From Cephalotus follicularis (Eukaryota > Streptophyta > Magnoliopsida > Oxalidales > Cephalotaceae): 64,000 nt of DNA. Positions within the stretch are counted from its first letter, which is position 1. The number at the start of each line of letters is the position of its first letter. The translations under genes and the position numbers were made by a program. The notes under the pieces are model-generated. The model did no database searches. It saw only the letters and a program-made list of their open reading frames with translations, and had not been told where the DNA came from. The stretch is taken from the NCBI GenBank assembly GCA_001972305.1, contig BDDD01001615.1, forward strand, positions 157,167-221,166, written 5' to 3'. Below, piece after piece: positions 3,110 to 56,391 of this stretch.

Positions 3110-3360
3110 GTCTTCAGAAGCATGTAGTCGTTGCTAGAGTTCAGGGAACGTCAGATAGTCGTTTGAATCAAGAATGGAAAGGATCACACCATTTTAGCAC
3201 CTTCAAAATTTGCAGATTTCGTGTCTGGCTGTCATTGGCATTGACTTGTACAAATGGCATTGGCGCCTATCATCTTATGCGTTGACTTCTGTAGCTTTAT
3301 GCGTTAACACTCCAAGCATTTGTACATCTTTAGTTCTGTTCTCATTGACGCGTATCCATG

Positions 3361-3560
3361 GCGTTGACGTATAACATCAAGATGTTGACGCCATAATACC
3401 TTTGAGTTAACGTCCAAACCTACTGTCTGAAATGTGCACCATTTGCGTTGACGTCTTGATATGGCGTTGACGTCTATAGACAAGATGTTGAAGCCATTTG
3501 TTTTCTGCGCTAACGTCCAAGCTATTTCCGTTGACGTCTTCCTCAAGACATTGACGAAGA
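3361..3560. repeat. array of GCGTTGACG-type palindromic motifs in copia-1 U3
   Basis: Motif starts at 3,361, 3,381, 3,404, 3,445, 3,464, 3,484, 3,507, 3,528 and 3,548 give steps of 19-23 bp, apart from one double step. The form is GCGTTGACGT and variants. Two more copies at 15,115 and 15,136 (21 bp apart) lie on the far side of copia-2, which landed inside one motif. Many copies contain TGACGTC or TTGAC cores, which are known bZIP and WRKY binding cores; such a use here is an inference. Confidence 0.75.
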
Positions 3561-3653
3561 TCATCATTTCCCAGCACATTGAGGCGGATATATATGACGT
3601 TGACGTGAATCATCTTTTTAAGCCCAGAACAAGTGCCTATTCCCAGCACGTTT

Positions 3654-8399: not shown

Positions 8400-9070
8400 T
8401 GTACGCCATAGTGATGAATCAAGGGATTCACACCTTTGTAATGGCGTAATGAATTGTTTAAATATTGTGAATGGATATATACTAAAACTGGATCCTTAAA
8501 TATAAAGAGTATTGTAAGAAACATTGTTTCGATTTGTATGAGATAAGCAAGGAGCTTGAATTGTGGTAAATTCTTTATTCTCATACATAGCAATATTCTA
8601 GTTAGTGCAAGAGGCACATGGATACAAAAGGATCTAAGTTTTAACCATTGTCTTAACAATTCAATAAGGAATATATAATAAAAGATTACTGAGAGATAAT
8701 GGGACTTTCTTTCTAAATGGACATCTCCGAGGAAAAACCATGTGGAAATGGCATATCCGTACAGAGTAGATGGACTTTGTGGAAAGGCTTTCTTTCTAAA
8801 TGGACATCTCCGAGGAAAAACCATGTGGAAATGGCATATCCGTACAGAGTAGATGGACTTTGTGGAAAGGGTCTAGTCCATTAAATCTTTTATACATCTT
8901 CCTATCTCATTCTGGGTTACGTATTACACATGGCAATACTTATCCAAATATGGATTCCTTGAAATCCGTCCACTCCGATATCGAGAGGATATCATATGAT
9001 CAAGGAGATCATACATGGAGGAAACCCAGCCTAAACTATCGGTTGGTTAAAGGCTGTCCAACTTATATAT
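8400..9070 (+). pseudogene. copia-2 protease/integrase remnant
   Basis: Fragments align with copia-4: 8,440-8,500 encodes an NGYILKLDP-like stretch matching the protease/pre-integrase region, and 8,880-9,050 contains an ISFW stretch and METQPKL-like residues matching the end of the integrase core. Between them lie a tandem 83-bp duplication and stops. The catalytic D-D-E set cannot be traced. Confidence 0.6.
8705..8870 (+). repeat. 83-bp tandem duplication in copia-2 integrase region
   Basis: Bases 8,705-8,787 and 8,788-8,870 appear identical, head to tail. The unit starts ctttctttctaaatggacat and ends gtggaaagg. Absence of differences between copies in an otherwise eroded element suggests a late event. 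Confidence 0.92.
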
Positions 9071-9861: not shown

Positions 9862-10258
9862 TCTACAGTATAACACTTCATTCATTCATTACTAGCAGTT
9901 AATAACAGTACGATCCATTCCGTATCATTCCTTAACAGTCATTCATTCCATATCAGTCCTCAATAGTCATTAATAGTCACTAACAGTCATCATTAACCGT
10001 CATAATAAATCATTCCTCGGCATCGCCTACTAAAGGAGGAGCAATAACGCACTCCAGACATTAAGGCAGAGGATCCAAGACAGGAATAATCATTACATTT
10101 TAGGCAGACCGGTTCCTCGGGTTCCTCGGCTGTAGGAAGAGCAATATACGCGCTCTAGGCGTTATAGGCAGAGGAGAGGAACATAAACATTATACAGTAT
10201 CAGTAACAGTCATTCAGTACACTATACAGTAATAATAACAGTAACAGTAACAGACAGT

Positions 10259-10455
10259 GTGGCTCATCTCGGTCGGTGATCAGTCGGCTCATCTCAGTTG
10301 GTGATCTGACGGCTCATCTCGGTCGGTGATCCATTGGGCTATCTCGGTGATCCCGTAGGCTCATCTCAAAGATAGCCTTGCCGGCTCATATCAATCAGTG
10401 ATCTGACGGCTCATCTCAGTCGGTAATCAGTAAGCTCATCTCAATTGGTGATCAG
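10259..10455. repeat. 25-bp tandem array in G0 LTR
   Basis: Eight or so degenerate copies of CGGCTCATCTCGGTCGGTGA followed by TC. Starts at 10,261, 10,286, 10,311, 10,337, 10,358, 10,383, 10,408 and 10,433 give a period of 25 with one step of 21. No coding potential is supported. Confidence 0.85.
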
Positions 10456-10779
10456 GCACAGTACAGTACATTGACAGTACATTAACAGTACCTTAACACT
10501 ATAGTAACAGTACAATACATTACACTAACACTACATTTCCATTCAATGTAGGGTCTGCCTTTATTTATTTATTACACTATACCTATCATCTACATTTCAC
10601 TACACTTATCAATTATATATTAATACCATCTCACTGCTCTTATCATTAATATATTTCCCTTCACAGTTGCCATCATTTCCATCACTCTTACATTTATTCT
10701 CCTTTTACTAACATCATGCATTCTTGTGCCAGCACGTCATGAGATATGCATAGATACAATGCAGACCATATACATGCCT

Positions 10780-11700
10780 GGGACGCATGTATCAAGTGAG
10801 CTCGAGTGCTTTGCCAGGGAAGAGCTGGTCACGTCGTTGAGGGCTTAGCAGGGCGTTGCACGAACGCCATACACTGGCGCTACATGATAGAGGGACGCTC
10901 AGTATGCGTTTGGCACCACAGGCACCTTGGGCATGTCTTCACGACATGTCTCCCCAGGCGCATTGTGTCCCCAACGTTATGGCAGTGGGCTGATACGTGT
11001 GTCCCCTGGAAATGGCTCCTCTGGCGTTTAGCATGGGTGCATCCTCCGTAGGTGTCCTCGGGCGTTAGCGCTGATGAAGTTATATGCAGAGGACAATGAC
11101 GTCCTCTGCACTTGTCCCCGGGCAATGGAAACAGTGGTGTTCTACCCTGGTGCATCCCCAGACGCATGGCAAAGTTTGGCGTCTTGGACGCAGGGCGCAT
11201 GGAACCTCGGCACGTGGCACCTCGGGCACAGCTCCTCGGGCATGGCTCCCTGGCACGGCTCCATGGGTACGGCTCCTCAGGCGGTTTGGCACCTCTGCGC
11301 CTGGTCGTCTAGGCACATCACCTCGGGATCGTCACCTCTGGCATGGCTGGGGTGTGAGGTGCATGCAGAGGATGATGTCGTCCTCTGCACTTGGCGTTCC
11401 AGAGCATGGCAGTGGAGGGAACGCAGGCCGAGGACAATGGCGTCCTTCGCGTTTAACACTGGTGCATCCTCTGTACCAGTCCTCGGGTGATGGCACCTCG
11501 GCATGTTTATAGAAGGAGATCGGCACTCGTGCATGTAAGGACGTTTGCAAGGATCCGGCGCATCCCTGGCGTGAGCGTGGCAGGACGCATGGATATAGGA
11601 ATGCGTCCCCAGTGCATGGTGCATCATTTGGCATCCTCAACATGTGATGCCAATGCACGTGACACACTGCTCAATAAAAACAAGTGCATCAGTGACGCTT
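10780..11700. repeat. GC-rich degenerate word array (CTCGGGCATG-like) in G0 LTR
   Basis: Roughly 15-40-bp steps of words such as CCTCGGGCA, GGCATGG, GGTGCATCC and GTCCTC. GC content is clearly above the flanks. It produces long open frames on both strands (for example 11,074-11,512), but none shows a protein family and the frames reflect lack of AT-rich stops. A similar word set (CTCGGGCATGTCCTC) occurs in solo LTR S2 at 21,640-21,770. Confidence 0.65.
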
Positions 11701-12466
11701 AGCGCGGGATCCTTGGAGGCATGAATACGTGCTTAAGCGTAGTGTCTTAACAGTGTCCATGGAGTAGTGTACATTTTATCCTTGCATTTCTAAGACAATT
11801 ATTCTATACTAACAGTACCACAACATTATCAATTAAAACTACTGAGGAGTGCTAGTAGGAGAACCTACCTGGAATTGATGAGCTCTAGCACACTTCCTCC
11901 ACTGGTTCCTCTTTTGCCTTCACTTCATTTTCCTTGATCCCTGGTAGCTCCTTCCTTGTCTCTTCCAAGGTTGGAGATGAGGGGATTTAATGAAAGTGGA
12001 GAGAAGGAGACAAGAACTTTCCAGATGATGGACGTCTCCTTGCCCCTTTCTCCCCCAAAATATCAGCAAGCCTTCACTGTCTCTACTCCCCTTTTTATAG
12101 GCAGTCAAGGAAGGCTCTAGAACTCACTCCACAATTCCATCAAATTTCTTCATATTGTGGGCTGCCGAGGACAACCCATATTTCTTCCTTTCTCCTTTAA
12201 TTCAATTTGGCCCAATATCCTTCTTCTTCATTATAACAATTTGTCCATTATCAAATCAAAACTCTTCAAGCCCAAGTGCTATGCATTCCTTTATTTATCA
12301 TAATTTGGCCCAACGCCAAATATAAATATTCAAGCTCAAATAATATTATCACCATTTAGGTCCAAAATACTATTTATTCATTAATTCAATTTCCAGTCCA
12401 ATAACAATATTACATCTTTGGGCCCAATTTCCATTTCTTAATATTTATAAAATTTCGGGTATTACA

Positions 12467-13551: not shown

Positions 13552-14863
13552 TGTACCGCCCCAAATCCCAAGGGTCAACCCCCAAGGTTTGACGTGCTAC
13601 GAACAGTATCATTCATTTACCCATTTTAGCGGAAATTAAAAACTTTTAACAATATAATAATACATGCGAAATAAATCTAATTAAATATCATTTGCGTGGA
13701 TAAAACCCTTTTGTACAATACTATTCATAAAGCTCTGCCACAAGCCGGCAGGTCATAAAACAAAAATACAATATATTTATACTCATGTGTCGTCGAACTG
13801 CAATAAGAGGGAGGAGACTCACCCGGGGCTTTAATCCTCAGCTTGCTTGCGAAGCTCCTCCTGTACCTGACCCATTACATTAAAATGCAATGGCTCAACG
13901 ACCACTGGTCGTGTAGGAACTACAACCCACTCATGTATGGAGATGCAGATGTAGCAGGCAATATGCAATGCAATGAGATGCAATAATAACAGTACAGTAT
14001 AACACTTCATTCATTCGCTACTAGCAGTCAATAACAGTACAATCCATTCCGTATCATTCCTTAACAGTCATTCATTCCATATCAGTCCTCGACAGTCATT
14101 AATATTCACTAACAGTAATCATTAACCGTCATAATAAATCCTTCCTCGGCATCCCCTACTAAAGGAGGAGAAATAACGCACTCCAGACGTTAAGGCAGAG
14201 GAGCCAGGACAAGAATAGTCACTATCAATTAAAACTACTAAGGAGTGCTAGTAGGAGAACGTACCTGGAATTGATGAGCTCTAGCACACTTCCTCCACTG
14301 GTTCCTCTTTTGCCTTCACTTCATTTTCCTTGCTCCTTGGTAGCTCCTTCCTTGTCTCTTCCAAGGTTGGAGATGAGGGGATTTAATGAAAGTAGAGAGA
14401 AGGAGACAAGAACTTTCCAGATGATGGCCGTCTCCTTGCCCCTTTCTCCCCCAAAATATCAGCAAGCCTCTCACTGTCTCTACTCCCCTTTTTATAGGCA
14501 GTCAAGGAAGGCTCTAGAACTCACTCCACAATTCCATCAAATTTCTTCATATTGTGGGCTGCCGAAGACAGCCCACATTTCTTCCTTTCTCCTTTAATTC
14601 AATTTGGCCCAATATCCTTCTTCTTCATTATAACAATTTGCCCAATATCAAATCAACACTCTTCAAGCCCAAGTGCTATGCATTCCTTTATTTATCATAA
14701 TTTGGCCCAAGGCCAAATATAATTATTCAAGCTCAAATAATATTATCACCATTTAGGCCCAAAATACTATTTATCCATTAATTCAATTTCCAGTCCAATA
14801 AAAATATTACTTCTTTGGTCTCAATTTCCATTTCTTAATATTTATAAAATTTTGGGTATTACA
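13552..14863 (-). repeat. G0 5' LTR (1,312 bp)
   Basis: Ends TGTAATACCC (14,863) and GGGGCGGTACA (13,552). It lacks the 1.74-kb repeat-bearing centre of the other LTR, joined across short homology at about 14,221. The flank just right (14,864 on) is copia-2 3' LTR. Confidence 0.85.
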
Positions 14864-15278: not shown

Positions 15279-16293
15279 AATATGACATACACATCTAACA
15301 TGAAATAATTTACCACTTAATATCGGATCAAAAAACCTCTTAATTGTCTAACAGCAGAATCATTATTAGTAGCATTATCAAAACTAATAATTTTTTTTTT
15401 CCTCAATTCCAAACTCACGAGTAGTTTCTATTATAGAGGTAGCTGTATTATGAACAGTGTGAGGATCATCCAAATTTTTAAATGTAATATTTTTTTTCTT
15501 CTAATAATCAGTTTTCGTCAATATAATGTGTAGTTATACAAATAAAACTTTTTCTCGTGTTTGTGCTCTAAACATCAGACGTGAGAGAAAAAGTAGAAAT
15601 ATTTATCGAAGAAGAAATTAATTTAGCCTTGTGTTCTTCATAAATAATAAGACAATCACTTTTAAAGGTAGTTATTGAATATAAGTTAGCCTGAGGATTA
15701 AGTCCTTCATGTACTAGATCACGGAAAAAAACTGAGTCAACATGAGAAAATGGTAATTCATTACCTATAATATAATAAACTAATTTCCTTCTATAATTTT
15801 CATCGATAAATCTAAAATTAAGTAATTTATGATCACCACTGACCTGGCTAAATTGGAGTTGGGTTTGGTCCGAACCTTTAACACCATGTTGTTCCAAGCA
15901 TTTTACTAAATGCCTATTGTAAGTTCCCGTGCCACCCCCACTTGTATAAGCATAATCCTTAGTGTTACATACCTTGCAAAAGACTAGTTTCTTTCCATTC
16001 CCGACATGTCTAATCTCCATGTGCTTCCATATGCCGGATTTTTGTTTCCCCCCTTTGATAGGATCGTTCTTCTCGGATTGTAGGGATGTTCCACCGATCG
16101 CAGCATCCGATGGCGTATCTTCATCCAAGTCAAAAAAATTATCACTAGGTGGAGGAGGTTGTTGCATCATGTGGGCCATTTCGTCGTCGTCATGAGGAAG
16201 TTCCACATCCGCCAAGTCGAACGCGGTGGTGGATGTAGAACCCACATTCTCGGTCCTCCTTTCTTCTTTCCTTGATCTTGATGTTGAATCCAT
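15279..16293 (-). pseudogene. hAT-superfamily transposase, N-terminal part, broken
   Basis: The Met at 16,293 opens a 241-aa frame. Residues 1-80 are polar and acidic; residues 87-132 form a BED zinc finger (C106, C109, H128, C132) after GIWKHM, the DNA-binding module of hAT transposases. Residues 165-225 resemble the start of the hAT catalytic region (LPFSHVDSVFF). After the stop near 15,570 the homology goes on in shifted frames (SDV then a Trp codon turned to stop, later an REFGIEEK-like stretch), until copia-1 cuts it at 15,279. The catalytic RNase-H fold and dimerisation domain are off-window. Non-functional. Confidence 0.85.
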
Positions 16294-16442
16294 TATAATG
16301 AAAAGATAAGAGCTTTGTAATGTATGGAATTGCTTGATCTTGATCTATTTTGGTATTTGAAGTGTTGTGTAAGTAGCTTGAGTTGCTTTGAAATAATTGA
16401 GAATTGCCTTACTTGATCATCGAGTAAGATACCTCACTTTTT

Positions 16443-16450
16443 CTTATAAA
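16443..16450 (-). promoter_or_regulatory. possible TATA box of the hAT transposase gene
   Basis: Minus strand CTTTATAAG, about 150 bp upstream of the transposase Met. The palindrome array starts about 45 bp further upstream. Weak by itself. Confidence 0.4.
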
Positions 16451-16492
16451 GACATGCTCAAATGGATCTATTTTTAAAAATCAGACTTAATC

Positions 16493-17135
16493 CAGTCGGC
16501 TGGATTTCCTTGGCAGTCGGCTGGAGTGGACCGTGTGTATTTCAAAATATAGTCGTTGGTGTAGGCAGTCGACTGGTTGATCTGTACAGTCGGCTGTTTG
16601 CCCAAAACAGTCGGCTGGTGGAGATAGAGAGGATTTCCAAAAAGCTACTGGTCAGTGACTCAGTCGGCTGGAAATTCTGGGAAGTCGGCTGTTTCACCTT
16701 GGAAGTCGACTGGATTTCCTTGGCAGTCGGCTGGAGTGGACATTGTGTATTTTAAAATATAGCCGTTGGTGTAGGCAATCGACTGGTTGATCTGGATAGT
16801 CGACTGGTAGAGGTAGAGAGGATTTCCAAAAAGCTACTGGTCAGTGACTCAGTCTGCTGGCAATTTTGGGCAGTCGACTGTTTCACCTTGGCAGTCGGCT
16901 GGTGCGGGCCAAATGCGGTTCTTGCGGTCCGATTTTTGTGGTTCGGTTCATACACTACTATGCGGTCCGGGCCGGGCCTGTTCGACGGGTCCTAAATATT
17001 TGAACCGGCCCGGACCACTCTCAAGGTCCGGTTCGGCCCCCGATCCTGCCACGTGGCAAGTGGTCCGGGCCGGTTCACGGGTTGGCCCGGACCACTTGCA
17101 ACTCTAGTCGACTACCCATCATTCGCAGTCGACTG
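16493..17135. repeat. array of CAGTCGRCTG palindromes at 21-bp steps
   Basis: Motif starts: 16,493, 16,514 / 16,566, 16,587, 16,608 / 16,661, 16,682, 16,703, 16,724 / 16,776, 16,797 / 16,850, 16,871, 16,892 / 17,105, 17,126. Every step within a run is exactly 21 bp; steps between the first five runs are 52, 53, 52 and 53. The array is partly built by a 189-210-bp tandem duplication (copies start near 16,501 and 16,711). It lies upstream of the hAT transposase. No coding content. Confidence 0.92.
16900..17105. mobile_element. GC-rich segment splitting the array; possible small hAT-type element or hAT end
   Basis: About 200 bp with repeated GGTCCGGGCC words. Near-inverted ends TGGTGCGGGCCAA (left) and TGGTCCGGGCCAA (right, reverse strand). 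Flanking octamers AGTCGGCT and AGTCGACT differ at one base, as an old 8-bp hAT duplication would, but they are also part of the array motif. The right edge AGAGTTGCAA (reverse strand) resembles hAT termini. Whether this is a separate element or the end of the transposase-bearing hAT is open. Confidence 0.45.
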
Positions 17136-17165
17136 GATTCTGCAGAATTGCAGAAAATTTTGGCC

Positions 17166-18101
17166 AAACTCAACAAACATCTTCGGATAATTCAGTCCAA
17201 ATTCAATCAATCAACCATTCTTCTTTAGATTCTAAACAAGAATCTAATACTAACGATTCCAACATTAAAACTAATAACTGCAATAAAAATATTATGAGAA
17301 AACCTTGTTTTACAACTCGAATAAATATGTTGAACATTGAAAAACAAAAAGAATCTAGTTTATTATTACAACTATTACATAAAATTGATGATCCAGAACT
17401 AAAAAGGAATATTTATTAAAAATAAAAGATTTAATTACAACTGAACCTTCAACAACAACCAACCAACCTTATACATTACAAAAAATATTTCAAAAATTTA
17501 ATAAACCAATTCCACAAACTCTTACATTACAAGATTTATAAAAAGAAATTAAAGATACTAAAAAAGAATTACAAAAATTTAAACAAAAAACAAAAGCACA
17601 AATTTCACATTTAGAACATTTATTACAAAAACATTCGTCTCCCTCATCCTCTGACAAAGAACCCGAACCTATTGATCCTGAAACTTCTACTATATTTATT
17701 AATTTAACTGAAAGAATCACTTATCAAAGATGGTGCATCAATATTACTATAGTAATTCAAAATTCTTTCAAACTCCAAACAACTGTTCTAGTAGACTCAG
17801 GTGCACAATTAAATTACATTCAAGAAAGGTTAATTCCAACAAGATTTTTTGAAAAAACTAAGAAAGTCTAACAACTGTTAATGGTGAAAAGATTAAAGTT
17901 AAATTTAAAATTCCAAATGCACATATTTGTAATGATGGCATTTGTATTAAACAAACATTTATCCTAGTCAAAGATTTAGACATAAGTATTATCCCAGGTC
18001 AATCATTTTTAGAAATCATTAAACCTTTTAAAGTAAACAACGAAGGAATTACAACAAAAATATTTCAAAGAAAGATTTTATTTGAATTTTCTAAACAACC
18101 A
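17166..18101 (+). pseudogene. caulimovirid polyprotein, coiled-coil and aspartic protease part
   Basis: 17,166-17,419 is an open Gln/Ser/Asn-rich frame; after a frame change near 17,419 a Lys/Glu-rich stretch predicts a coiled coil, interrupted by a stop at 17,538. The retropepsin-type catalytic triad Asp-Ser-Gly is at 17,794-17,802, within a VLVDSGA context. A stop follows near 17,870 and another frame change brings the protease C-terminal part to about 18,060. In the live virus this enzyme would cut the polyprotein. No CCHC coat-protein knuckle is present upstream. Broken by at least two stops and two frame changes. Confidence 0.8.
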
Positions 18102-19200
18102 ATGACTAAAGATATTAATCTCTTCAAAGCTTTATCACTTTTTAAAGAACATTCAATAAAGTTAATAAAAAGAAAAGAAAATCATTTATATTTTATGAAA
18201 CAAGAAATGTCAATCTATAAACTTGAAAAACAATTACAAACTCAACAAGTACAAAAAAAGATTAAGACATTAAAAGAAAAAATAATTTCAAATCTCTGTT
18301 CAGATCTTTCAGATGATTTTTGGCATCGGAAACGTCATATGGTATCCTTACCATATGAAAAAGATTTTTGTGAACAAAACATTCCCACAAAAGCAAGACC
18401 AATTCAAATGACCCGCGAATTAATGGAACACTATAAAAAAGAAATTCAAGATTTATTGGTTAAAAAATTAATTAGGCTTAGTAAATCCCCCTGGAATTGT
18501 GCAACATTATATGTTAATAACAATTCAGAAATAGAAGGAAGCACACCCAGATTAGTTGTTAATTATAAACCAGTAAACACTGGATTACAATAGATTAGAC
18601 ATCTAATTCTAAATAAAAAAGATTTACTTAAAAGATTAACTGAAGCCAAAGTATTTTCCAAATTTGATTTAAAGTCAAGATTCTGAAAAATTCAAATTCA
18701 AGAAAATGATAGATATAAAACTGCATTTACCACTCCTCTCGGGCAATATGAGTGGAATGTTATGCTATTTGGCCTAAAAAATGCCCCAGTGAATTTCAAA
18801 AAATTATGAATGATATTTTTAATCCATATTCATCATTTTCCATTGTATACATTGATGACGTTCTAATATTTTCCAACTCTATAGAATAACACTTTAAACA
18901 TTTATATATATTTTATAAGATTATTCAAACTAATGGTTTAGTATTATCAAAAACTAAATTAGATTTATTCATTACGAATATTAGGTTTCTTGGTCATAAT
19001 ATACATCAAGGAACTATCACTCCTATTCAATGTTCTATCCTATTTGCTGAAAAATTTCCAGATGTTATTATTGATAAAAAGCAATTACAAAGATTTATAG
19101 GAAGTTTAAATTATATTAGAGATTTCATTCCCAATCTCCAACATTTGTGTATCTCATTATATCAAAGATTGAAAAAGACTCATCTCCCGTAGACGGATAA
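18102..19200 (+). pseudogene. caulimovirid reverse transcriptase, broken
   Basis: 18,102-18,593 is an intact 163-codon stretch covering the start of the polymerase. The frame then runs into a stop at 18,593-18,595 and another at 18,684-18,686, both where a Trp codon is expected. The active-site motif Tyr-Ile-Asp-Asp survives at 18,848-18,859 in a different frame after a small deletion near 18,790. The thumb region continues to 19,190. The enzyme would copy viral pregenomic RNA into DNA. Catalytic aspartates are readable, but no uninterrupted enzyme is encoded. Confidence 0.88.
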
Positions 19201-19728
19201 ACATACTTAATTAATTAGACAGATTAAAAATTATGCCAAAGAAATTCCTTGTTTACATTTAGCCTCACCACTAGCATTCAAAGGTGTAGAAACCGATGGC
19301 TCAGACATACGATACGGTGGAATATTAAAACAACTAATAGACAACAAGGAACAATTAGTACAATATACAAGTGGAACTTGTAACAATGCTCAAAGAAATT
19401 ACGCTACTATTAAAAAAGAAATTCTTGCAATTGTATTATGTGTTAAAAAATTTCAAAGTGATTTGTTAAACCAGAAATTTTTAATTAGAGTTAATTGGCA
19501 GCAGCTAATTCAATTTTAACCGAAGATGTCAAGAACTTAGCATCTAAACAAATTTTTGCAAGATGGAAAGGAATTTTATCTGCTTTTGATTTCACAATTG
19601 AACATATTATAGGAGATTCAAACTCCTTACCAGATTATTTAACTCGTGAATTCCTGCAAGGAAATAAAACATTTGAAAACAATTTTACATTCTATTGCGT
19701 GGAAAACAATTATGCATCTTGTGCGTGA
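19201..19728 (+). pseudogene. caulimovirid RNase H, broken
   Basis: From about 19,240 to 19,520 one frame holds the RNase H start (TDGSD context, Asp and Glu of the active site plausible). A frame change near 19,495 moves it into a 77-codon frame that ends at 19,728 with the typical caulimovirid ending SLPDYLTREFL. It would degrade RNA in RNA-DNA hybrids during reverse transcription. It directly follows the polymerase, as in all caulimovirids. Confidence 0.85.
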
Positions 19729-19785
19729 AAACATTATGAATCATAGTGTAACATTCTTTACATTTTACATTTCAGGAAAACCACT

Positions 19786-21023
19786 ATGGCCTCTAAGCCA
19801 AAAAACACTTTCAAAACAAAGCAGTCTTACTCACAAACATCTCATAACACAAGATTGTTACCACAAACTATTACAACCATTCCAAATGAGAAATCGCTCA
19901 TACCCGTTCCGGCCAAACCATTAACTACTATTTATGCAAACATTGTGAAAGGAGAGAAGCCAACTTCCTCTCAAGCCATTATTACCCAAAAATACAATAA
20001 GCCCACAAACAAACATATACAAGGTGATTATTCTGAGTTCCTCTTAACTATTGAACTGGAATTTCAAAGGAATTGCCAAACTCCTCTCGAGATTGCTCAG
20101 AGAGTCTTTCACAATGGTTGGAATTTTGATTCTACCCACCCATTTAAAACCCAAATATTTTATGAATATATTTTAGTAGACACAGACTCAATCAAAATTA
20201 GCCTTAAAACTGATCTAAAAAACCCCTTCTTAACTACTCATACTTCAGTTTTTATCCAAAAAAATTATAACCATTCCAGAATGGGGACAATCTCCTCACT
20301 CTTACAGATACTTTTCATCCTCATTTGATCCTCCTACTTATAATTACTTTGATTACATGGATGCATGCATTCCTCTTTCAAAATATTGAAAATAAACATT
20401 CTTGGTTCTTTTGTTTCGACAAAACATTCAACAACAATAAAATTCTCCCCTATTGGTTCATAGACTGGTGGCTTTTTTATGGACCACATGATGCAATTTT
20501 ACCCAATTCTATTACGGATGCATTGGTCACATTTTCTAACCACATTGAAAAGAATCCACTCTGTCCCACAATAATAACATTTTTTATCCATTGTAGATTA
20601 TCCTGGATAATGTATTGGGATTATAGCATATGCCAGCCCACTCCAAACCATTTACCAGCACTCTATAATTTTTTTTTGACAAAATGGTGGAATAACTATG
20701 ATTGATCCAAATGTACACCTCAAACAATTCTTCAATCATTTCAAACCAAAACCCAACAAGATCAAAAATTTACTTTAACAAAAAGCCAAATACAAACCTC
20801 CATTGCATCATCATCCACTAAACAAGAACTTCAAGCACAAATTAAAAAATTACAACAAGCATTAGCAAGCACTCCTGATGATGAAGACGATAACAACTCT
20901 CAACCTTCTGTCTCTTCTTCTATAGCATCCATTAATTTAGGAGATGATGAAGACTTCATTCCAGCCACCAAAAGAAAAGAAAAAGAGAAGACTTCAAAAT
21001 CTACTAAAACTGGAAAAAAATAA
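19786..21023 (+). pseudogene. second caulimovirid open reading frame, function unknown
   Basis: Starts at Met 19,786, 58 bases after the polyprotein stop. About 412 codons in all, interrupted by one frame change near 20,320 and one TGA at 20,703-20,705. N-terminal third: basic, Pro/Thr/Ser-rich, then a compact mixed region. Middle: aromatic-rich with several Trp and Cys (20,400-20,700). C-terminal third: Gln/Lys heptads suggesting a coiled coil, an acidic Asp/Glu run, and a Lys-rich tail ending at 21,021-21,023. Position matches the ORF2 of florendovirus-like genomes, whose role I do not know. No enzymatic motif seen. Confidence 0.7.
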
Positions 21024-35949: not shown

Positions 35950-38544
35950 TGTAATAACCGCAAATTCGATTCGTGTACATTGTAATATTGATTAATAAAA
36001 TGTGCACTTACTTGAATTTAATGTCCAATTACTATAGGGTTGTGGTTGTAGTTTATTTGAACATGATGAGCCTAAAATAACCAAAACAGCCATCGACAGC
36101 CGACTGTCACAGGGGAACAGTCGACTGTCTGATTCGTGGTATGGCAGTCGACTGCCTGTTGAAGATAGTCAACTGGATCGGTACAGAACAGGTGTCTGTA
36201 CATGCCTGTGAGACTAAATCAAAGGGGCATTGCATGAGGGACAGGTGTTAGGCGAAGTCACCAGCTGCCAGAGCATGCAAAAAGGCATGCTTGCATGTCT
36301 TCTATCCCTCCTGCAACCTGCAGACAGAAGATGGGAAAGAGAGAAAGTAAATGTAAGCAAAATGCATGTGAGAGAGAGAGAAGGAAATAAGAGAAACTGA
36401 GTAAGGGAATCTGGCGAATACAAGGGTCCCTGAGCTTTATATCAGCTGTCCAGGAGCTGAATGTGTGTTAGAAAACACTATGAATCGAGGAGGAGAGTGG
36501 CTGGAAATTGATGGAGCTTGCATGTTGAAGGATTAGAGCTCAAAGAGGGAATTGAAGCTTTGAAGTTCTTGGTAAGTCCTCAATTCGAACTCACTGCTAA
36601 TGTGATGATAATGTAACTAGGAGGATGTTAAGATATCTTCTGTTAACATGGTTAAGGTTGGCAACTTCTAGATTTGAATTGGAATGGTAATGTAAGGAAG
36701 TAAGAAATATGGACATGAAGCTTAGAGAATTTTAACAACTCTAATTCGAATTGTAGTTGTTATTAGTTGTCATGTTATAAACTTACTGATTCCCTTAAGT
36801 ATACCTTCTGTCCACACGTTTAAGATCAAAGAATCTATAATTGAATGATATTTGACATAAGGTTCATAGAGATGTGGTAAAAAGAATAATTTATGAAGCT
36901 AATGAACTAGTGATTAACTACTGTTGAAGTGGTATTTGCCATAAGAAATTACTGAAGCTTACTGGTACTAATGCATGTGTCTGTAAACATGCATGCATAG
37001 ATTGATTCTGCTGGAACTGAAAGGATTGTTTGGTGAAAGAACTTTGGAAACTCAAAGAGAAAGATCAACCCCAATTGATCTTGGGATAAGCAATTGAGGT
37101 AGGGGTAATGACATGTTTATGGAAGATATTTTATGCATATCATGTATGTTTATTTTCTGTATGATTGCATGTGTTGAATTGGTTAGAAATTGAACATTGA
37201 AACACATAACCTGCTACTGCATGCACTTTATGGGCAGAAGCAGTCGACTGTTCTTCATGGCAGTCGACTACTCAATGCATCCAGTCGACTGTTAAGAGAA
37301 AATAGTCGACTGCTCAACCAAAACAGCCGACTGTTCTTGAGAACAGCCGACTGTCCTGGGTTAAATATTTCTATTATAGGTCATGTTTGGGCCAACTGAA
37401 TTGCTACTATTTCTGTTATTGCTTCTGTATATGCTACTGTTAATTAGTATATACTAATGATTGTTATAAACCCTATTGTTATATATTTCCAAAGATTGAA
37501 CAACTAAGTGCTATATGCACAAATTGAGGTTATCGACTATCATTTTTAAAATAAAAGATTATTGTTAAAAGATCTACTGATTTTCCTCCTATGAGAGGTA
37601 CCTACTGTTTTGTTTCCCAAACTGGAAACCACTACTGTATTGATATCGTTTTCCTCTTATGAGATGTACGATCACTGAATTGTTATATTTTTCTAAAGAA
37701 AACACTTTGATATTGCATATTATTTATATATGTAATATTATTATTGAATTGCATTGATTGAATTGCTTGTCTATGTTATTTTCCGTTTGTCGAGTGATGG
37801 CAGAGGTCACTGGCTATGGTGGGGATCCTAGATGCCAGGAGTTGGCTAGAGTATCACCCAAACTTATCTGCATTGCAGATCTTATTGTTAAACTGCCCGC
37901 TAAACGCCGGTAGTAAATGTTACCTTTTCTATCGTCCTCAGAGTGCAGGGTGATAGTTAGGTGGTGCACAGTTGGTGCTAGGAGTTAGCGACATGTGACA
38001 CCCAAACCACTGTATGAATTGAGTGTACCCTTGTGCGGTATTCTTGCATTTGTACTGTCTATGGCCACTTGGCATGATTGCTTATATATTGGCACATTTC
38101 AAAAGTTATTTTAAATATAAACTGTCATACATGTTGCATTCATATATTCCTTAGCATGCATTATCTTCCTACTTAGCCAAGTGAGGACAACGGCTAACCC
38201 CTACAATTTCAGATTAAGCAAGGACATTGGAGATTGCTGCTGAAGCTTGGAGAGCTTCTATTTTTTTCGATTTAAGGTTGTTATTTTATGATGTTGTACT
38301 GTATTTGAAATGAACGGTTCATACCCCATGTTACTGTTGTACTTCCTTATGTGTAAGGGTAATTTTGGATTGTACCTGCACGTAGTATGGGCTGCGTGCG
38401 GATGACTTGTATTTATATTCCGACTTACTGAATGCTTCCGCATATTGTTTTATGAACTGCTAAATGGAATGCTGGAATATTATGTTTAATTATGATATCA
38501 CCATATATGCTTGTCTAATGTATTTGGAATAACGGGGTGTGACA
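35950..38544 (+). mobile_element. S5: solo LTR (2,595 bp) nested in gypsy-1 3' LTR
   Basis: Starts TGTAATAACCG and ends GGGGTGTGACA, with a perfect 5-bp duplication AATGG (35,945-35,949 and 38,545-38,549). The uninterrupted site is visible in the 5' LTR at 46,102. Contains two CAGTCGACTG arrays. No interior, no supported gene. Confidence 0.93.
36097..37353. repeat. two CAGTCGACTG palindrome arrays in S5
   Basis: Array 1: 36,097, 36,118, 36,145, 36,166 (steps 21, 27, 21). Array 2: 37,241, 37,261, 37,282, 37,303, 37,324, 37,344 (steps 20, 21, 21, 21, 20). Forms are CAGTCGACTG, CAGCCGACTG and TAGTCGACTG, the same decamer and spacing as at 16,493-17,135. Confidence 0.92.
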
Positions 38545-39589: not shown

Positions 39590-39903
39590 GCGTTGACGCG
39601 TACAGGTTAGGTGTCGATGCTAAACCTCTAGGCGTCGACGCTTTCTTCTAGGCGTCAACGAATAAGGAATTATGCCTCAGGCGTCGACACATACGCTAAG
39701 CGTCAACTACTCATAACACATAAGGCATCGACGCTTTACCCCAAGGCGTCGACACTGATGTCTATTTTCCCTTATAGCTTTAACGTGTTGCACGGTATAG
39801 CGCACAAATGCACAAGGCACATAGGAGTCGACGGTTAGGCCGAAAGCGTCGACGCTCTAGGCCCTGAAGAACACGTCAACGTGTACCAAGAACACGTTGA
39901 CGC
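39590..39903. repeat. GCGTCGACGC palindrome array, gypsy-1 3' LTR
   Basis: Starts 39,590, 39,611, 39,632, 39,652, 39,681, 39,700, 39,725, 39,746, 39,777, 39,825, 39,846, 39,873, 39,894; six steps are 20-21 bp. Forms include GCGTCGACGC, GCGTTGACGC, GCGTCAACG and GTGTCGATGC. Lies about 0.5-0.8 kb downstream of the LTR TATA box, so it would be transcribed. Confidence 0.88.
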
Positions 39904-45681: not shown

Positions 45682-47639
45682 TGTCATGCCCTGAACAGTG
45701 AGGAAACCCCCACGATTCGACACGTGATATACCATCCGTTCAATCTATTCATATCATATAAAACATACCCCAAAAACTACTACAAATTTAAAACTTAAAT
45801 ACCATAAGCATGCGGAAGATAAACATCACTATACAAAGACAAGCCCATCCATAGCCGTCACATCGACATATACATATCTTAAGCGCTGCCACAAGCCGGC
45901 AGGTCAAAAGCTAAAATACAAATGTCTCTTATACATTTCCAACTCATATACATAAGGTAGAGATCGGGGACTGTGTTCCTGCTAGAAATCCCAGGCTGTC
46001 GTCTGTCCCGTCCAATCACTTTGGTACCTCATAAGTACCTGACCCATTACGAAAATGGGTCAGCGACCAATGGTCAAGTAGGCAATACAATATGCGATGC
46101 AATGGTATGCAACATATATACAAATATATATGCATGGCATGTTATATGCATGAATGCCAAGTGTGGACACCTCCAGTACGCCAACCGTCCCTAAGCAGTG
46201 GTGTACTTCGCTAGTCCTAGTACCACATCAAAGACCATAGGCCTGCAGACACTTCCTAAACAATCCATAACCATACCGTGGGAACAATCAATCCATAGGA
46301 TCAAGTACTTATCTGCCTCTCTGGTCCGAGATAGTACCTCCACTGTCAATGCACCCTCCGTGTCATATCCAAGTGGAGCATAGGATAACATCGGCCACAT
46401 AACCGTACCATAATGCTTATACCCGAAGGTACCAGTCCGTAATACTAGTCCCGAAGGTACTAGCCTGTAAGGGGATATGTACGATCTATCCATAAGGAGA
46501 CTAATACGATCTACCCCATATCCATATCATAGCGTTCAACAATGCGGTGATGCTCGTAGGTCACCCCAAAAGGGAGGAATCCGTATTCGTGTCACTCTAC
46601 AATTCGGTGATGCCCGAAGGCCATCTAGCAAAGGAGGAATCCATATAATATGTGGCCTACATCCATAATACTTAATGAAGGAAATGAATATTATGAATGG
46701 GTTATCCCATAAGTCTCAATCATAACAATCATAGCCGTATCGTAATCGTAACCATAACCGTATTTCCGTGTAAAGGATAGGGTCCATCCATAAAGGACCA
46801 CATAGGATCCATCAATCAAAACCGTTAGAAACCATTTCCGTAACCATTTCCATAAACATTTTCTTGGTCCCTATCAAAATTTGAAAACAATGGAGAGGAA
46901 GTCTGACTAGGATATCCGCGTCCAAATGTCCCAATTGAGCTATCCTAACCATTCTTAAAAACCATTTCTATAAAACCCCATTTTTATGAAACTTTCTTTA
47001 AAGATTGATTTGAAGATTAATCCATAGTTTAAAAGTGTTAAAATAGGATTTTCATGGGCTACAAAGCCTTAGGGAGGCTTCCCATGGAATCCATTTGAAG
47101 AGAAAACCATTTGGGTTGAAAACAGTAAAGTTTGGTTTAAAGAAACAGGGGCGCTAGGCATTGACGCGTACAGGTTAAGCGTCGACGCTTAACGTCTAGG
47201 CGTCGAAGTTTTGCTCTAGGAGTCGATAGATAAGGCATTATGCCTTATACGTCGACGCATACGTAAAGCATCAACTACTCATAACGCATAAGGCATCGAC
47301 GCTTTACCCCCAAGGCATCGTCGCTTATGTCAATTTTCCCTTATAGCGTCAACGTGCTGCACGGAATAGCGCACAAATGCACAAGGCACATAAGCGTCGA
47401 CGCTTAGGCCGAAAGCGTCAACGCTCTGGCCCTGAAGAACACGTCAACGCGTATGAAGAACACGTTGACGCCCTGCACTGTCAACACTGTAAAGAGGTCA
47501 AAAAATCCATCAAAATCCATTTAAATTATTTTTAATTCGATTCAAAGGAAGCTATAAGCTCCAAACATAAATTAAAACTCAAAAACAGCCTTTAAACAAT
47601 TTAAATCCATTCCCATATCCCTTAGATCGAGAGAAAACA
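45682..47639 (-). repeat. gypsy-1 5' LTR, outer part cut off by gypsy-2
   Basis: Matches 35,525-35,949 and 38,545-40,070 of the 3' LTR. The GCGTCGACGC array reappears (47,158, 47,179, 47,200, 47,220; steps 21, 21, 20, and more to 47,470). Cut at 47,639; the remaining U3 lies beyond the right edge. Confidence 0.9.
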
Positions 47640-55841: not shown

Positions 55842-56391
55842 GCGTCAACGCGTAGGCGATGGCATCGACACGTACGATAGAAGCAGGGAGAAGAGAGATG
55901 ACGGGGAAGAAGAGAGAGAGAGAGAGAAAAGTTGAAGTGTGTTCAGCAAGTTTTGACATCTTGTCATTTAGCTATTTATAGTCTTTGACTTCTCTCTCCA
56001 CTTTACCCCAAAAGTCACACCAACTTCTCTAAAGTCAGGTGAGATGTCGTGTGTCAGTCCTCATGGTGTCAACGCCATGCGTCTCATCCTATCTTGGCGT
56101 CAACGCCAAAGATAAGATGAAACAGGCGCATAGTCTCTTCCTGTCTTAGCGTAGACCCATAAACCTTATAGCGTCAACGCGTAAGTCACTGGTGTTTAAA
56201 ATGTCAAAAACAACTCTCCATGGCGTTAACACCCAGGGACTCTATCCAGTTATGGCGTCGACGCATGCTCTTCATGGCATCAACATTTAAGTCACTGGTT
56301 TTCTCAGCGTTAATGCATGCTCTTCATGACGTTAACGCCCAGTGACTCAACTAGACATGGCGTCGACACATGCTCTCCATGGCGTCAACGC
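55842..56391. repeat. GCGTCGACGC-type palindrome array in copia-4 3' LTR
   Basis: Starts 55,842, 55,862 / 56,066, 56,097, 56,149, 56,171, 56,223, 56,255, 56,277, 56,307, 56,329, 56,360, 56,382. Steps alternate about 22 and 30-32. The main block lies 90-410 bp upstream of the LTR TATA box in element sense, and the first pair just downstream. Confidence 0.87.
55973..55980 (-). promoter_or_regulatory. TATA box of copia-4 3' LTR
   Basis: TATAAATA on the minus strand within CTATAAATAGC; repeated at the same place in the 5' LTR (63,925-63,932). Confidence 0.65.

Follow-up and report, generated by a model that had tools for sequence, protein, structure and literature searches.

The array of short palindromes at 16493-17135 of the window (the whole 64,000-nt stretch of DNA that was analyzed) is most probably the U3 control region of a Sirevirus-type copia LTR, in which a host factor on the palindromic sites would drive transcription. 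By homology, the segment 16306-16901 (minus strand) is a piece of a Ty1/copia LTR of the Sirevirus type. The repeated decamer, CAGYCGRCTG, is common to copia and gypsy LTRs and very widespread in the genome. The array and its neighborhood contain the following features:

15568..16293, minus strand: broken ORF immediately downstream of the LTR fragment, which we take to be hAT-like from its motifs
16306..16492, minus strand: core promoter plus leader, with homology to a Sirevirus-type LTR that ends at about 16306
16443..16448, minus strand: TATA box (TATAAG); the last decamer lies 44 bp upstream of it
16493..16901, minus strand (the sense strand): 14 CAGYCGACTG-type palindromes in the U3 of the Sirevirus-type LTR fragment
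16494..16902 (16494-16713 and 16704-16902), no strand assigned: two higher-order units of about 200 bp, the second one 21-bp step shorter
16524..16565, minus strand: TATA-proximal 52-bp gap, read from the sequence as CCAACGACTATA on the sense strand
16734-16775: second copy of the 52-bp gap, read from the sequence as CCAACGGCTATA
16902..17106, no strand assigned: GC-rich 205-bp segment that contains inverted repeats and has TAGAGTTGCAAGTGG (minus) at its end
17107..17135, minus strand: what is left of the array past the probable insertion; its outermost decamer is at 17126

Sixteen sites with at most two mismatches to CAGYCGRCTG were located in 16493-17135, arranged in six runs; ten of them were exact. 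The steps from site to site were 21 / 52 / 21, 21 / 53 / 21, 21, 21 / 52 / 21 / 53 / 21, 21 / 213 / 21 bp. Coordinates and steps were recounted, and the initial annotation, which had described 16 sites at 21-bp steps in six runs with gaps of 52, 53, 52, and 53 bp, was correct. Its caution that a duplication had copied part of this order was also borne out: 16494-16713 and 16704-16902 are duplicates (82% identity, offset 210/189), and therefore only one 52-bp gap and one 53-bp gap are independent. Exact CAGYCGRCTG occurred 17 times in the whole window vs 0.09 expected. Arrays of the repeated motif (RM) boxes of Sirevirus LTRs form CpG islands; here the observed/expected ratio of CpG was 0.66 in 16480-16905, 0.26 in the spacers alone, and 0.64 in the whole window; a ratio of 0.85 was obtained for 16450-17140, a range that takes in the 205-bp insertion. 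The array was also considered as a coding sequence, and this was rejected: stops were present in the array frames, and the frame was broken by the 52/53-bp steps. In viral contigs, the decamer-pair pattern was found in nine stretches, with one pair in each.

Matches to LTRs spanned the array, the TATA box, and the leader. On the minus strand, 16653-16306 matched C1:102536-102168 (77.8%, E 3.7e-84), and 16595-16311 matched the LTRs of a Sirevirus-like element, C1:157624-162249 (69%); C1:1-200000 was the unselected 200-kb stretch used for LTR comparisons. Thus, the array represents the U3 of an LTR and lies outside the element of the neighboring ORF. The last decamer was 43, 43, 44, 44, and 44 bp from TATAA in five of the six LTR copies measured (four lineages, window included), while the sixth, whose last site has a variant sequence, gave no distance. 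Palindromic sites, clustered upstream of the TATA box, numbered 14 in the window and 11–18 in related LTRs. The Sirevirus criterion, AGGGGGAG exactly 10 bp ahead of the 3' LTR with an AT/TG junction and in several copies, was found in C1:4376-10195 and C1:157624-162249: both had the junction AGGGGGAG-AT-TG at the 3' LTR, with 3 and 4 copies of AGGGGGAG, respectively. A copia-type gag (E 1e-31) was encoded in C1:4376-10195. The 9-bp Sirevirus primer site TATCAGAGC, expected after CA/ATTGG, was not found in C1:4300-10400, where CAGTTGGTATCAG stands at C1:5467; its sole match in C1:157500-162400 was outside the expected place. Past 17135, the alignment did not outscore the best of the shuffled controls with two of the three LTRs compared (103.0 vs 108.5 and 83.0 vs 92.5) and slightly exceeded it with the third (78.5 vs 74.0). 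A degenerate coding stretch, presumably pararetrovirus-like by its motifs, abuts the outermost decamer at 17136-21000; three ORFs there gave no Pfam hit.

The 205-bp segment 16902-17106 is probably an insertion inside the array. It was flanked by an 8-bp repeat (GTCGGCTG/GTCGACTA) matching at 6 of 8 positions; excising 205 + 8 bp brings 17126 to exactly 21 bp from 16892 and yields four sites in one run, the arrangement seen in Sirevirus LTRs. The site at 17105 would mostly be the second copy of the 8-bp target-site repeat. We take the segment to have a hAT-like terminus on one side only, ending at 17106; the two ends did not match each other, and the left end was not a proper terminal repeat. 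The array had been described as lying upstream of a hAT transposase gene, and this stood as far as position is concerned: it is 5' of ORF 15568-16293, which we liken to a hAT transposase by motifs (Pfam zf-BED at E 0.94, below the cut-off). The array itself, however, belongs to a retrotransposon LTR. No homologues of the ORF were found in the protein database at E 0.001, its structure prediction was poor (pLDDT 44.5), and a search of solved structures returned nothing relevant. The LTR homology ends at about 16306, 13 bp ahead of the ATG at 16293, so the LTR could have driven the ORF.

Decamer pairs exactly 21 bp apart numbered at least 88,790 in the whole assembly (1.58 Gb; genome-wide counts of repeats are lower bounds) vs 246 for a reversed-letter control. 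In C1:1-200000, CAGTCGACTG was the commonest palindromic 10-mer, with 60 copies vs 0.10 expected from base composition, and exact CAGYCGRCTG was present at 111 sites in 24 clusters. Five other 10-kb stretches contained 8 sites in one and none in four; thus, the density of the decamer varies. Half of the clusters (12 of 24) were inside six LTR pairs of 95–99% identity, one cluster per LTR; in one of these pairs, a single site faces three. Ty3/gypsy genes were found within three of the pairs (C1:66362, 168030, and 184062). An unbiased scan of the window for repeated palindromes revealed arrays of at least five copies of only CAGTCGACTG and GCGTCGACGC, ATGCATGCAT aside, while 20 shuffles never exceeded four copies. 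Both CAGTCGACTG and GCGTCGACGC have the GTCGAC core. The elements concerned are as follows:

35950..38544, plus strand: solo LTR (TG..CA, 5-bp target repeat AATGG) that lies within a gypsy LTR and bears the decamer at 36097-36175 and 37241-37353
39590..39903, no strand assigned: second, related array of the GCGTCGACGC type in a gypsy LTR, with the LTR partner copy at 47158-47471
C1:4376-10195, 157624-162249, 66362, 168030, 184062, and 48757: the six LTR pairs with decamer clusters

Arrays of GCGTCGACGC or with a GTTGAC core were also present at 56066-56391 and 3281-3604, in gypsy LTRs and other repeats. The steps of the GCGTCGACGC kind were looser: of 58 steps in the 200-kb stretch, 19 measured 19–22 bp, as did 11 of 23 in the window. 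Elsewhere in the window, an 83-bp tandem duplication consists of two perfect copies (8705-8870), and the LTR at 9864-12466 is split by an insertion of about 1.7 kb (10096-11823) relative to the copy at 13993-14863.

Judged from the alignments, the palindromes appear to have been kept by selection while the intervening DNA changed, a mark of function in living elements. Between LTR lineages (aligned LTR regions below 86% identity), 1092 of 1165 decamer columns (93.7%) were identical vs 2880 of 3876 spacer columns (74.3%). Site identity was above spacer identity in 26/26 directional comparisons (13 pairs), which are not mutually independent and come from local alignments (about 300–1,900 bp) possibly anchored by the decamers. 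CpG pairs were kept at 102 of 117 positions inside decamers vs 249 of 417 elsewhere. Where the two LTRs of a single insertion were compared (six pairs), there was no difference (sites 645/660, spacers 2256/2322); thus, with conservation between lineages and none in excess after insertion, the decamers would have been kept in active elements and then decayed. Within the window array, where sites were picked by likeness, the mean pairwise identity of decamers was 0.94 vs 0.29/0.32 for spacers in the first unit and 0.83 vs 0.46/0.32 in the second. The initial view that the array is not the drift of a simple satellite agrees with this conservation of decamers and not spacers, seen both within the array and between lineages. 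After the window duplication, divergence was greater in decamers than around them (8/60 vs 9/129, raw counts), and the window copy is therefore not maintained now; in an old gypsy LTR pair, 20/120 positions differed in sites vs 115/1394 in the surroundings (raw counts). Such an excess of site divergence after duplication would fit the decay of methylatable sequence.

The spacing of sites was tallied with one LTR per pair dropped (six of 24 arrays) and with the duplicated array of the window counted uncollapsed. Steps of 19–22 bp made up 95 of 118 (19, 20, 21, and 22 bp: 1, 22, 63, and 9, respectively), with a mean of 20.8 bp, which upholds the earlier interpretation of the within-run step as two helical turns. 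The use of the 52/53-bp gaps as evidence for a 10.5-bp register was not supported: among the matches listed, nearly all such gaps either are one inherited gap or hold a third decamer, 31/32-bp steps are rare, and gypsy LTRs have steps of 27/28 bp. Among the first 50 matches listed for pairs at 52/53 bp, 28 represented one homologous gap with an AACGRCTATA-type motif (AACGGCTATA), 21 held a third decamer, and one held neither. In the matches listed, this motif was at offset 18–20, its distance from the decamers being almost constant, and the 52-bp gaps of the window (CCAACGACTATA and CCAACGGCTATA) hold it too. Its recurrence in a homologous gap indicates that the 52-bp gap was inherited and accommodates a further site; AACGG is a core of the MYB type. 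Genome-wide, pairs at 52 and 53 bp together numbered 3,838 (control 15). The 27/28-bp step, about 2.6 turns, was found at C1:67005, 58920, 169459, 184215, and 198500, gypsy LTRs among them, and at 36118-36145 of the window; longer steps in Sirevirus-type LTRs were 50, 52, 60, and 64/65 bp among others.

The sites had either the symmetric form CAGTCGACTG or an asymmetric variant. In 10/10 arrays with at least two asymmetric sites (LTR twins counted), all sites had the same direction. Forty of 46 oriented asymmetric sites read CAGCCGACTG on the sense strand; the six reverse ones all came from the gypsy pair C1:168030/178592, a counter-example to sense polarity in which the asymmetric sites are the other way round. 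Among the matches listed, decamers flanking the AACGRCTATA gap were CAGCCGACTG in 52 of 56 cases, CAGTCGACTG in 4, and CAGTCGGCTG in none; CAGYCGACTG described all 56. One-way sites fit an oriented reader or an oriented (one-sided) ancestral array, and inheritance of polarity from the latter could count against the host-factor view.

A strict helical register, with all sites on one face of the DNA in a 10.5-bp lattice even across the gaps, seems quite unlikely to us. The within-run steps near two turns and the 52- and 53-bp gaps near five turns speak for it, as do 23 longer steps, of which 10 were within 1 bp of a 10.5 multiple vs 5.0 expected (R 0.41, nominal Rayleigh p 0.02). These 23 steps, however, lack independence: the duplicated array of the window supplies four of them, and the Sirevirus-type 52s are one homologous gap. 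Other LTRs have steps of 27/28, 49/50, 60, and 64/65 bp; pairs at 31 and 32 bp together numbered only 837 (control 6), and, by inspection, a single spacer sequence recurs at most of the listed places; in a phase test of 12 hand-chosen window gaps, there was no signal (R 0.21). A neutral 21-bp minisatellite, for which the higher-order duplication within the array might argue, is scarcely credible, as spacers are near random while decamers are kept, and steps of 20, 21, and 22 bp are mixed. Plant hAT elements carry subterminal transposase-binding repeats, and the hAT-like ORF directly downstream together with the hAT-like terminus ending at 17106, both of them presumed likenesses, would suit an array of such sites. 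This is highly improbable: LTRs in C1:1-200000 show homology to array, TATA box, and leader alike, nothing in that stretch matched the ORF at E ≤ 1, and half of the clusters there occupy LTR pairs at least 95% identical.

It is unlikely, if less so, that the palindromes act as RNA, with transcript hairpins feeding small-RNA production, which has reportedly been proposed for the palindromes of maize Sireviruses. Sirevirus LTR palindromes are described as hotspots of small-RNA mapping in PMC5311732, and the antisense (plus-strand) RNA of the array folded far better than shuffles (z -5.8). The polarity nevertheless argues against hairpins in sense RNA because the usual sense variant CAGCCGACUG self-pairs poorly (-5.7 vs -15.9 kcal/mol for the symmetric form) and sense array RNA folds less well than antisense (z -2.3). 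The well-pairing variant of the opposite strand (-14.7 kcal/mol) is rare in sense (6/46, and 0/56 among the matches listed). Binding of the motif by a TE-encoded, VANC-like protein would explain a short motif with CpG in its center, placed in non-coding tandem arrays of more than one TE type, and VANC6, according to PMC5735166, is a precedent for action on a TE unrelated to VANDAL. We regard this as very unlikely, since a motif in both copia and gypsy LTRs needs one protein acting on both.

Under the preferred reading, a U3 control region read by a host factor, a Sirevirus-type LTR array would later have been copied by local duplication, interrupted by the 205-bp insertion, and truncated. We infer that a sequence-specific DNA-binding factor binds at several sites in each run along one DNA face and that, once bound, it may drive or license transcription from the TATA box; the 52-bp gap would serve a second factor, bound at AACGGCTATA. 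Since the motif occurs in copia and gypsy LTRs alike, the simplest assumption is a factor of the host. As the candidate reader, we presume a factor for GCCGAC/GTCGAC and guess at a DREB/CBF-type AP2 protein because sense-strand CAGCCGACTG contains the RCCGAC core. More tentatively, one host factor, an oriented palindrome with a GYCGAC core, and a two-turn lattice may form a common transcription entry for copia Sireviruses and several Ty3/gypsy lineages. If so, the GCGTCGACGC arrays would be a second version for the same or a sister factor, and the paired sites, tens of thousands in number, would account for a large part of all the sites that the genome offers to it. A single genome, with this abundance of 21-bp pairs and the motif in two retrotransposon superfamilies, offers a natural test of conservation between lineages and none after insertion. 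It also carries a warning: helical phase should not be read from inherited gaps.

Among known systems, the subterminal repeats of hAT elements resemble the array as repeated short sites near a hAT-like gene; they lie, however, between the terminal repeat and the transposase gene, whereas the sites here are in an LTR promoter. VANC proteins recognize, in VANDAL DNA transposons, YAGTATTAY (VANC21) and AGTTGTCC/AGTTGTAC (VANC6), as given in PMC5735166; these targets differ from the decamer in motif, in their TE-encoded reader, and in belonging to DNA transposons. Among the papers listed in our literature searches, none other than the Sirevirus work concerned this array, no title listed for CAGTCGACTG dealt with plant transposons, and none reported a factor reading Sirevirus LTR palindromes.

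The closest known kind is the repeated motif (RM) boxes, palindromes upstream of the TATA box in Sirevirus LTRs (Bousios et al. 2010, PMC2829016), and the array is a variant of them. In the portion of that paper known to us, RM boxes are clusters of at least eight palindromic copies; the window array has 14. The two have in common many copies of a short palindrome, the short distance upstream of the TATA box, and elements with the AGGGGGAG-AT/TG polypurine tract; grape RM, CGGTCGACCG (Table 3 there), contains the same GTCGAC core as the decamer. The decamer differs in its flanking letters (CA..TG), reads CAGYCGACTG on the sense strand, and is without the CGG-CCG core signature, to which the same portion names Tnd-1 as the exception. 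The 20–22-bp step and the polarity are unreported for RM boxes in that portion. There, RM is called Sirevirus-specific against classic copia elements, in a comparison without gypsy elements, while the decamer is also present in Ty3/gypsy LTRs of the same genome, so that the restriction to Sireviruses does not hold for the decamer. Experiments were called necessary there to tie the palindromic arrays to regulation. To these boxes our analysis adds what is new: one motif in copia and gypsy LTRs, the two-turn step, the polarity, and the evidence of selection.
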